From an uncultured Cytophagales bacterium (GTDB lineage Bacteria > Bacteroidota > Bacteroidia > Cytophagales > 172606-1): a DNA stretch of 64,000 bases. The translations under genes were made by a program, and so were the position numbers. Positions within the stretch are counted from its first letter, which is position 1. Each line of letters opens with the position of its first letter. Under the pieces are notes generated by a model. That model did not search any database. It was not told the DNA's origin and saw only the letters and a list, made by a program, of their open reading frames with translations. Positions 8,651-12,079 of this stretch are shown piece after piece. Location of the stretch: NCBI GenBank assembly GCA_902805615.1, contig CADCTQ010000001.1:1-64000 (forward strand), in the 5' to 3' direction.

Positions 8651-10309
8651 TTACTGCCACACCTCCAGGTAATCCACGTAGTAGCTGCCCGACCCGGCCG
8701 CAGGCGTATCGAAACTGAGGTTATCGAGATTGTTCACCGTGACCCCGTTGCGGAGCCCCACCTGGTCGGCCCGCTTGACGCCGTCCACGTAGATGTCGCA
8801 CTTGTCGGTGCTGGTATTGACCACGATCTTGACCGTATACCAGGTGTTGGCATTGTAGCCCTGCATGGTCACGTAACTGCCCGACGCACTGCGGTAGGCC
8901 AGGTTGCCGCCGTTGGCCGTGCCCACCTGCACGGCGGTGGTGACGCCGCTCCTTACGTTCACGTTGCAGAGGTCCGCCTTGGCCGGCACCATGAAGCGGT
9001 ACTCCAACTGCACCGTGCCCGACTTGGCGGCAAACGAACGGGCGGCTTTCACGTCGGCAGTCGCGTTGTTGTCGTTGAGGTAGAGGCTCAGGTTGGTCGT
9101 ACCGGGCACGGCTGCCACCGTGGCCGAGCCACCCGTTGTCGAAAGCGTCCAGCCCAGGGGCGAAGTGCCGGCCGCGGTCCCCTTGTCAAAGTTCTCTTCC
9201 ACGTAGCCTACGCCTTCCTGGAAACCGTAGTAAGACGGTTTTTCGGCATAATTTTCGTCCATGAGCAGCGGCCAGTAGGTACCGCCGAAGAAGCTGTTGA
9301 TCCAGCTTTCATTATCACGGATGCCCCACATAGTAATGCCGAACTGGTTGGCGGTGGAAGTATTGCTTTTGTAGGCCGCCACAATCTCTTTTACCTTCAC
9401 CCGCTGGTCGTAGGCCAACTGGGCGGTAAAGGTGGACGAAGAGCTGTTGGTCCGCACGTCGAGTTCCGACAGGTGGGCCTGCACGTTCTTGGCGGCCAGT
9501 TGCGCGAACACGCTGGCAATGTTGCCCGTGCTGGCCCCGATCGTCACGTGTGTCTGCGACCCCACGCCGTCAATGGCAATGCCGCGGCTCCGCAGGTTGT
9601 CGATCAGGTTTTTGACGGCCGTGAGCTTGCTAGCAGAGCTTTCCAGGTCAAAGTCGTTGTAGAAGAGCAGCACGTTGGGGTCGGCCTCGCGGGCCCAGCG
9701 GAAACACTTGGCCAGGTAGTCGCTGCCCAGCTTCTGGTAAAACAGCGAATTGCGCAGGCTGCCGTCGTAGTTGAAGGCTTCGTTCACCACGTCCCAACTG
9801 GCTACTTTGCCGCGGTAGCGGGTCACGATGGTCTGGATGTGCGTCTTGATGAGGTTGTCCCAGTCGGTGGCCGTGCCGCTGTAGGTGGTCATCCAGCCGG
9901 GAATGGACTCGTGCCAGATCAGCGCGTGCCCGTGGACCCGCAGCCCGTTGCCGTAGGCGAAGTTCACGATGTCGTCGGCGTCCGTCCAGTAGAAGGTGGT
10001 GGCGCCGGGCCGCATGGCCCGCATTTTCATGTCGTTTTCGGCCGTTACGCTGTTGAAGTGCCTAGTGAGGGCGGCCCGGTGCGCCGCGTCCTCCCGAATT
10101 TTGCGGCCCGACGTGATGGCGCCGACTTTAAAGGGACTCACTGTTTTGAGCACGGGATCAAAGCCGGACCGGGCGGAAGCGGGGGAAGCGGGTTCCGCGG
10201 CGGGAACGGGAGCATCCGACAATCTTTCTTCTTTACAACCGGCGGCAAAGAGGGCAACGAACAGGGCGAAGCCGAGGGCTTTTGCGGGGCGGCGGAACGG
10301 GGTAGGCAT
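8651..10309 (-). CDS. Endo-1,4-beta-xylanase, GH10, lipoprotein, with C-terminal beta-sandwich-like domain
   Basis: FNSVTAENDMKMRAM, HGHALIWHESIPGWM, SWDVVNEAFNYDG (acid/base), LSELDVRT (nucleophile); lipobox AAGC. Confidence 0.92.
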   Translation of the reverse strand: MPTPFRRPAKALGFALFVALFAAGCKEERLSDAPVPAAEPASPASARSGFDPVLKTVSPFKVGAITSGRKIREDAAHRAALTRHFNSVTAENDMKMRAMRPGATTFYWTDADDIVNFAYGNGLRVHGHALIWHESIPGWMTTYSGTATDWDNLIKTHIQTIVTRYRGKVASWDVVNEAFNYDGSLRNSLFYQKLGSDYLAKCFRWAREADPNVLLFYNDFDLESSASKLTAVKNLIDNLRSRGIAIDGVGSQTHVTIGASTGNIASVFAQLAAKNVQAHLSELDVRTNSSSSTFTAQLAYDQRVKVKEIVAAYKSNTSTANQFGITMWGIRDNESWINSFFGGTYWPLLMDENYAEKPSYYGFQEGVGYVEENFDKGTAAGTSPLGWTLSTTGGSATVAAVPGTTNLSLYLNDNNATADVKAARSFAAKSGTVQLEYRFMVPAKADLCNVNVRSGVTTAVQVGTANGGNLAYRSASGSYVTMQGYNANTWYTVKIVVNTSTDKCDIYVDGVKRADQVGLRNGVTVNNLDNLSFDTPAAGSGSYYVDYLEVWQ

Positions 10310-10411: not shown

Positions 10412-10446
10412 GACCTCACCCCCAACCCCTCTCCAAAAGAGAGGGG
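10412..10446. repeat. Palindromic Bacteroidota-type intergenic repeat
   Basis: ACCTCACCCCCAACCCCTCTCCAAAAGAGAGGGG; an inverted counterpart GGAGAGGGGTTAGGGGTGAGGT lies at about 10675-10699. Confidence 0.65.
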
Positions 10447-10481
10447 AGAAAACCAGCGATACGAAGCCCCCTCTCTACCGG

Positions 10482-10670
10482 AGCTACGATTAGGACACAT
10501 TTTTGGAACCTGCTCCAAAGACCATCCCGAGCCGTCAGTGAGACACTGACGGCGGCGTGCGGATCTTTATGGAGGTTGTTCCGTGCCGTTGTTGGCGTCT
10601 TTTGCTGCCGTGGTCAGTGTCTTCACTGACCACTTTTAGTCCATTTCCAAAATGTGTCCTAATCGTAGCT
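10482..10670. mobile_element. 189-bp MITE-like element with about 26-bp TIRs and 7-bp TSD (CTACCGG)
   Basis: AGCTACGATTAGGACACATTTTTGGAA at the left and TTCCAAAATGTGTCCTAATCGTAGCT at the right; CTACCGG at 10475-10481 and 10671-10677. Confidence 0.85.
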
Positions 10671-10705
10671 CTACCGGAGAGGGGTTAGGGGTGAGGTTTG
10701 GGACT

Positions 10706-12079
10706 TTAGTAACTCGGGTTCTGCGGCAGCAGGTTAGGGTTCAGGTCAATTTCCCGCGCCGGTATGGGCCACAGAATCCGGTCCGGGTTGGTGAGGTTGG
10801 GAATGGTGCCGACGGCTTTGTTCCAGCGCACCAGATCAAACCAGCGGTGGCCTTCAAAGGCAAGTTCGAGCAACCGTTCGTTTTCAATGGCCAGCTTTAC
10901 TTCCGGCTGGGTAGCGGCCGTCGTTGGCGCCAGGCCCGCCCGCACCCGAACCTGGTTCAGCAAGGGCAGCGCTTCGGCCGTACGTCCCAGTTCATTCAAC
11001 GCTTCGGCGCGCAGCAGCATCACGTCTGCCAGGCGCAGCACCACGATGTTCACGTCCTGCACGCGGCGGTTGGTGGTCACGTCCGGGGGGCCGGATTCGT
11101 ATTTTTTAATGTAGGGCTTCTTGTCATACTCGCCCACGGACGCCGCGCGGCGTACGTCATTAAGGTTGGCAGCAAAGAGCGTAATCATTTTAGGCTCCGG
11201 CCGGAGGTAGTACTGATTGCCCTGCGCGGGTACGGTGAGCCGGTCCAGGTTGTGGTTCTCCTGCTCTGCGTTGGGGCGGTAAGATACTTCGAAGATCGTT
11301 TCGGCGGTATTCTGTTTGCCTACCGTAAACAAATCGGCAAAATTGGCGCCGGGAAGCAGGCTGTATTGCGGGTCGGCCATTACTCTTTCCAGTTCCACCA
11401 GCGCCTTTTCGGTGTCTCCCGCCGCGTTACGGGTCATGTATACTTTGGCCAGCAGCGCCTGCGCCGCGCCCTTTGCCGCCCGGGCCCGGTTGGTGTTGGC
11501 GGCCGGCAACAGTCTTTCCGCCTCCGTCAGGTCGGACACGATCAGGTCATACACCTCGCTTACTTCACTGCGGGGCAACTGGAAGATTTGCTCGGGGCTC
11601 TTGGACGGCTCGGTCACCAGGGGCAGTTTGCCGTACAGCCGCACCAGGTTGAAGTAGAGCAAAGCCCGGACAAAGTGCGCTTCGCCCAGTACGCGATCTT
11701 TGTCAAGCGCCGGATCGGTAATGCCCGGCACATTCCGGAGCACGTCCACGCAGCGGTGAATGGCAAAGTAAGCCTGCCGCCACACGTCGCCCACGTTGCC
11801 CTGCGACGGCGTAGGCGCAAAGCTCTGGTGGCGCGTATTGTTACCGCCCTGCGAAATAAGCGCTTCGTCGCTCACGACTTCCGGAATCACGATCATGTTG
11901 CCGTAGAGGGCACTGTTCTGCATGCCGTCGTAGCAGGCCACCAGTGCCGCTTCTGCATCGCTGGCCGACTTATAGAAGTTGGAGGAAGCAATCTGGCTGA
12001 CCGGCTTCACATCCAGCACGCCGCTGCACGAAAACGAGGCCAGCACCAGTCCGGCTATCCATAAAATCTTGGTTTTCAT
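10706..12079 (-). CDS. susD-like: RagB/SusD family nutrient-uptake outer-membrane lipoprotein
   Basis: Signal plus Cys, YDGMQNSALYGNM, VRALLYFNLVRLYGKLPLV, NELGRTAEALPLLNQVRVRAGL, LAFEGHRWFDLVRW. Confidence 0.93.
   Translation of the reverse strand: MKTKILWIAGLVLASFSCSGVLDVKPVSQIASSNFYKSASDAEAALVACYDGMQNSALYGNMIVIPEVVSDEALISQGGNNTRHQSFAPTPSQGNVGDVWRQAYFAIHRCVDVLRNVPGITDPALDKDRVLGEAHFVRALLYFNLVRLYGKLPLVTEPSKSPEQIFQLPRSEVSEVYDLIVSDLTEAERLLPAANTNRARAAKGAAQALLAKVYMTRNAAGDTEKALVELERVMADPQYSLLPGANFADLFTVGKQNTAETIFEVSYRPNAEQENHNLDRLTVPAQGNQYYLRPEPKMITLFAANLNDVRRAASVGEYDKKPYIKKYESGPPDVTTNRRVQDVNIVVLRLADVMLLRAEALNELGRTAEALPLLNQVRVRAGLAPTTAATQPEVKLAIENERLLELAFEGHRWFDLVRWNKAVGTIPNLTNPDRILWPIPAREIDLNPNLLPQNPSY

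Follow-up and report, generated by a model that had tools for sequence, protein, structure and literature searches.

The window, by which we mean the whole 64,000-nucleotide stretch of DNA analyzed here, contains an element at positions 10483-10669 that very likely represents a MITE from a Tn5-like IS group of the IS4 family, mobilized in trans, with a preference for CCCCTC-N9-11-GAGGGG targets that are cut inside their arms. We observe many copies of this element, target duplications around them, a rule governing their targets, and ends shared with an IS4-type element from Pontibacter.

Boundaries of the element and its target

The element and its surroundings comprise the following features:

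8651-10309, minus strand: GH10-like xylanase gene (from the open reading frame list, named from reading its translation)
10415-10697, no strand: whole host doublet carrying the MITE, with outer inverted ends CCTCACCCCCAACCCCTCTC / GAGAGGGGTTAGGGGTGAGG (outer limits approximate; based on the inverted repeat pair and the reconstructed empty site)
10426-10446, no strand: sister hairpin CCCCTCTCCAAAAGAGAGGGG within this doublet, uninterrupted
10468-10473, plus strand: CCCCTC, left arm of the target palindrome split by the MITE
10474-10482, plus strand: left copy of the 9-bp target duplication TCTACCGGA
10483-10669, plus strand: MITE, 187 bp, an imperfect palindrome without coding capacity, with other copies aligning over the same span
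10483-10508, plus strand: left TIR GCTACGATTAGGACACATTTTTGGAA
10644-10669, minus strand: right TIR, with 2 mismatches against the left TIR over the 27 bp of the first-pass annotation
10670-10678, plus strand: right copy of the 9-bp target duplication TCTACCGGA
10679-10684, plus strand: GAGGGG, right arm of the target palindrome split by the MITE
10706-12079, minus strand: susD-like gene (from the open reading frame list, named from reading its translation)

The first-pass annotation had described a 189-bp element with near-perfect TIRs and a 7-bp target duplication, CTACCGG, inserted into the loop of an older palindromic repeat. The element itself is real, although its size is better given as 187 bp, with ends GCTACGATTAGGACAC, because well-aligned copies elsewhere span only bases 2 to 188 of the 189. 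Its TIRs (10482-10508 and 10644-10670) are indeed near-perfect, being identical at 25 of 27 positions, and 100 shuffles of the window gave no chance match. CTACCGG is present on both sides, but the direct repeat is longer, at 9 bp. Deleting the element together with one repeat reconstructs an empty site, CCCCTCTCTACCGGAGAGGGG, which folds into a hairpin with an 8-bp stem and a 5-nt loop, bearing out both the placement in a palindrome loop and the order of events, with the palindrome present first and the MITE arriving second. The assignment of the outermost G/C to element or target is ambiguous in most copies, because the target palindrome usually has C/G at the same positions.

With its 187-bp length, TIRs, gene-free interior, and dispersed multiple copies bearing target duplications, the element has the properties of a MITE. 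It lies between the flanking susD-like and GH10-like genes, both on the minus strand. The 217-nt region around it has a folding z-score of -11.5, and comparison with Rfam returned nothing significant.

A dispersed family in the genome

We searched the 8.77-Mb draft genome (694 contigs) for further copies. BLAST with the element returned 109 matching stretches, corresponding to about 40 distinct copies, and the 16-bp end (allowing up to 2 mismatches) occurred 135 times, compared with 4 times for a reversed-pattern control, so the absence of any other copy, named by the first-pass annotation as part of what would overturn its reading, does not hold. Since many contigs stop inside an element, copy number was estimated from paired and single ends, suggesting a family of about 65 copies. 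Both ends could be read in 47 copies, most of which are 187-235 bp long. Copies at different sites are up to 99.5% identical, which indicates fairly recent spread; the closest relative of the window MITE, among the 44 copies shorter than 300 bp that were compared, is 94.7% identical. The longer stretches between two ends, of 1046 bp (L101), 645 bp (L104) and 557 bp (L105), were read for a transposase gene, and none was present.

Target preference and duplication length

Among the 113 ends with enough readable flank, 105 have GAGGGG (up to 1 mismatch) at offsets 3-15, compared with 7% of random positions from the same loci, and in 79 of the 113 the motif lies exactly at offset 9, 10 or 11, compared with 0.165% of random positions. 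Exact direct repeats of at least 8 bp flank 23 of the 47 copies with two readable ends, far more than were obtained when flanks were randomly re-paired (mean 6.6, maximum 16, in 10,000 shuffles). Nineteen of these 23 exact duplications sit exactly between a left CCCCTC and a right GAGGGG (up to 1 mismatch), and such arm-bounded duplications are 9, 10 or 11 bp long, with the length following the loop. For 12 of the 23 copies, the reconstructed empty site is present intact elsewhere among the loci examined. The stagger length carries an uncertainty of one or two bases at each end; at 9-11 bp (plus or minus a base at each end), the direct repeats span about one helical turn, as in the IS4 family. 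What the annotation had read as a single nested insertion therefore survives as an event but not as an accident: insertion into palindromes is a systematic target preference, and nested insertion into the loops of other palindromic repeats is the rule for this MITE.

Flanks are unlike in 11 of the 47 copies (about a quarter) and inverted in 7. The same loop in opposite orientation was found in 6 inverted pairs at 10 bp, against 5.4 by random re-pairing. Recombination or gene conversion between copies is the most likely origin of those with unlike loops. Taken as the sole source of unlike flanks, reciprocal recombination between randomly oriented copies fits poorly, as most of the copies concerned still keep one outer and one inner flank, a pattern that makes gene conversion a likely contributor. 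ISRm22 copies with unlike repeats have likewise been attributed to re-pairing by recombination between copies (PMC1525189).

Host hairpin repeats

The interrupted hairpin in the window and its sister hairpin (10426-10446) form an inverted doublet. Apart from the sister hairpin, no exact CCCCTCTC-N2-10-GAGAGGGG palindrome was found genome-wide, indicating that this doublet type is rare in this genome. The related palindrome CCCCTCC-N6-12-GGAGGGG is common, occurring intact in 108 places in the genome (control, 0). Many of these palindromes are paired, with starts roughly 105 bp apart, and their outer flanks resemble ACCACCCCTGT, their inner flanks GGGGAACCGTA; the host doublets, consisting of two inverted palindromes in many copies, are thus REPIN/BIME-like. 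The orientation of the MITE relative to the doublet varies. We also observed doublets of about 128 bp (L058:1501-1628, L060:1367-1494 and similar) in which CCCCTCC-loop-GGAGGGG occurs twice, inverted, with constant stems and loops that differ even inside one doublet.

Search for the transposase

A transposase gene with exactly the ends of the MITE was not found in the 694-contig draft of its own genome. A search of 391 genomes from the order recovered the exact 16-bp end from the genome itself, from two congeneric genomes, from one genome belonging to a different family (G023), and from Pontibacter pamirensis, where it occurs 11 times. In a sister species (G001), which has a single exact copy of the end, the same end-to-palindrome junction is seen, with the solitary end GTGTCCTAATCGTAGC directly adjoining TCCTGGGGAGAGGG (L133:1501-1516).

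All 16 bp of the MITE ends are shared with a multi-copy element in Pontibacter pamirensis of which only the two ends are assembled. Every copy is cut off by a contig end some 110-150 bp into the element, the pattern that a short-read assembly would be expected to give for long, identical copies. One element end encodes WCYWVMARLGGWKPHEKRAGVITLHRGYMEFCKIFDGWMLAQKFVS, running up to the inverted repeat, and this fragment shares 43-47% identity with the C-terminal part of the ISSysp3 transposase (IS4 family), a comparison that covers the C-terminal fragment only. Scanning 84,980 species genomes with the fragment yielded 29 loci, including full-length relatives in cyanobacteria and Bacteroidota, whose transposases match NF033590 (IS4 family) far above cut-off (E 1e-87 to 3e-132); one of them also matches the Tn5 transposase (PDB 1mus, E 6.6e-32). 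We used NF033590 because PF14706 misses several full-length relatives: the Pfam profile gave no match in five genomes, and was below cut-off or absent on several of the full-length relatives as well. Our first lead, the IS1182 family, had been suggested by palindrome targeting and was dropped because the Pontibacter end encodes an IS4-type C-terminus.

Reading the sequences around the full-length relatives places several of them in palindromes, such as L190 in CCCCTTGGGAAGGGG, L191 in CCCTCTCCCGAGGGGAGAGGG, and L186 in CCTCTCCTCCC(T/A)GGGAGGAGAGG. The Pontibacter flanks have GAGGGG at about 10 bp in most cases. One Pontibacter insertion lies outside the usual palindrome, at two contig ends (L162 and L181) that we infer to belong to one insertion; its best fit has the G in the element and a 9-bp duplication, CACTCCTAT. 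In Pontibacter pamirensis we also observed a copy (L164 / L177:1482) inside a gene resembling another IS transposase, at a target, CCTCTCCTCCCTGATG, that is not a perfect hairpin. The MITE very likely stems from the Tn5-like branch of the IS4 family, and its mobilizing enzyme, judged from the element of another genus, would likewise belong to the IS4 family.

Another Tn5-like IS is present in the MITE's own genome, in two copies of about 1.6 kb (L168:406-1996 on contig C27, and L171:362-1919 on contig C639). This IS has ends GCTAATCTTGTAGGGAAA, encodes a transposase matching both NF033590 and the Tn5 transposase, and is flanked by palindrome arms of the CCCCTCCGAG / CTCGGAGGGG type. Because its end agrees little with that of the MITE past the first four bases, it is probably a parallel case and not the MITE's mobilizer. 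In its protein, IEQAQGP is repeated in a run, a different number of times in each of the two copies. Elsewhere in the genome, GCTAATCTTGCAGGAAAA-type ends enclose about 310 bp of DNA next to CCCCTCCCCGGA (L069:925-1235, contig C53); this probably represents another MITE family, one that is related to the L168 IS and has the same target preference.

Proposed mechanism and alternatives

By analogy with Tn5, a transposase supplied in trans would bind the GCTACGATTAGGACAC ends and excise the element, and joining would proceed through staggered target cuts about 9-11 bp apart, a spacing suggested also by the duplications. As the sequences of occupied sites show, the target complex prefers a symmetrical CCCCTC-N9-11-GAGGGG and cuts just inside each arm, so that the whole inter-arm sequence is duplicated. 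In this genome such sites come almost only from abundant hairpin repeats, usually inverted doublets about 105 bp apart; the MITE would therefore come to sit in hairpin loops, where damage to genes would be unlikely.

In a more far-reaching version, to which we give only tentative weight, a group of Tn5-like transposases would read a cruciform or measure from two symmetrical arms, with the duplication set by the distance between the arms and not fixed. If true, DDE transposition would here be guided by structure or by arms, and elements in Cytophagales and cyanobacteria would be kept within the loops of other repeats.

The strongest rival, which we consider rather unlikely, holds that the transposase recognizes the extruded hairpin (cruciform) instead of the arm sequence, and joins at the 5' side of two loops, thereby duplicating the loop. 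Nearly all targets can form hairpins, duplication length tracks loop size, and structure recognition has been argued for in the case of IS1272, where a loop-following duplication is the outcome of pathway c of the model, drawn as a hypothetical alternative (PMC5678879). The arm sequences are nearly constant, however, and two clean insertions with 9-bp duplications, L111:19231 and the Pontibacter insertion at L162/L181, occurred at sites that have hardly any folding potential (MFE -0.7 and -0.8) and yet have C-rich and G-rich sides. The near-constant arms and these two barely folding sites lead us to favor recognition of sequence.

It is also very improbable that MITE and flanking palindrome form one composite repeat that spreads as a unit, with direct repeats that are not target duplications. 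The MITE does lie nearly always inside a palindrome, but intact palindromes without it are common, loops vary between copies while the same asymmetric loop is repeated within a copy far above random pairing, orientation relative to the doublet is variable, and some insertions lie in quite different sites; the empty palindromes and the asymmetric duplicated loops already refute this reading in its simple form. The idea that selection maintains a local palindrome or attenuator at this operon, to which the strong fold and the position between the susD and GH10 xylanase genes, in the same direction, might point, deserves next to no credence and is refuted by the roughly 65 dispersed copies with duplications; the nearest susD relative in a sister genome (L222; orthology uncertain) lacks the block.

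The near-constant insertion in hairpin centers and the existence of related elements with Tn5-like transposase genes give the element the look of a parasite for which other repeats are harmless places to land. Tn5-type transposases usually choose their targets with little selectivity. A lineage of this type that in nature inserts almost only in the loops of repeated hairpins, and whose duplication length is set by the flanking arms, offers a tractable system for asking whether transposases read DNA shape or sequence, and shows how a genome can accumulate nested repeats without gene loss, with repeats serving as safe havens for other repeats.

Comparison with known systems

Insertion of IS elements into REP palindromes is already known, including for ISRm22 of the IS4 family (PMC1525189). 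IS1397, IS621, ISPsy8, ISPpu9/10 and other REP-inserting ISs are, like the MITE, site-specific in repeated extragenic palindromes, but belong to the IS3 and IS110 families and produce short or no duplications (PMC1525189). IS1272 (IS1182 family) similarly targets inverted repeats able to form stem-loops, but belongs to a different family and replaces the stem-loop without target duplication (PMC5678879). ISSysp3-like IS4 elements (NF033590) of cyanobacteria and Bacteroidota have ends, such as GGCTACCGTGTACACAC, that share GGCTAC and ACAC with the MITE, but are autonomous, about 1.5 kb long, and not identical to it at their ends.

IS50/Tn5 (IS4 family, subgroup IS50) makes 9-bp duplications, and its transposase is homologous over the whole protein to those of the full-length relatives, whereas its target preference is weak and its duplications are fixed at 9 bp; Tn5 duplications have GC pairs at their ends (PMC1525189). 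Subgroup IS50 is characterized by ends CW------Y---CA-A--W- and direct repeats of 8-9 bp (PMC2266710). Read from their second base, the MITE ends fit this consensus except at position 9, and the 9-11 bp duplications are slightly long for the subgroup.

A close parallel in targeting is ISRm22 of Sinorhizobium meliloti (IS4 family, subgroup IS4Sa), every copy of which lies on the axis of symmetry in a repeated extragenic palindrome (PMC1525189, PMC2266710), a strong target conservation noted in the IS4 review (PMC2266710). ISRm22 is autonomous, has reported 6-bp repeats, and belongs to another IS4 subgroup and host, whereas the MITE is non-coding and has 9-11 bp repeats whose length follows the arms. 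A search of open-access literature found no report of hairpin-loop-targeting MITEs in Cytophagales, nor of the NF033590/ISSysp3 group as palindrome targeters. What is new relative to these systems is the MITE itself, its Cytophagales setting, and a duplication length that follows the arms.
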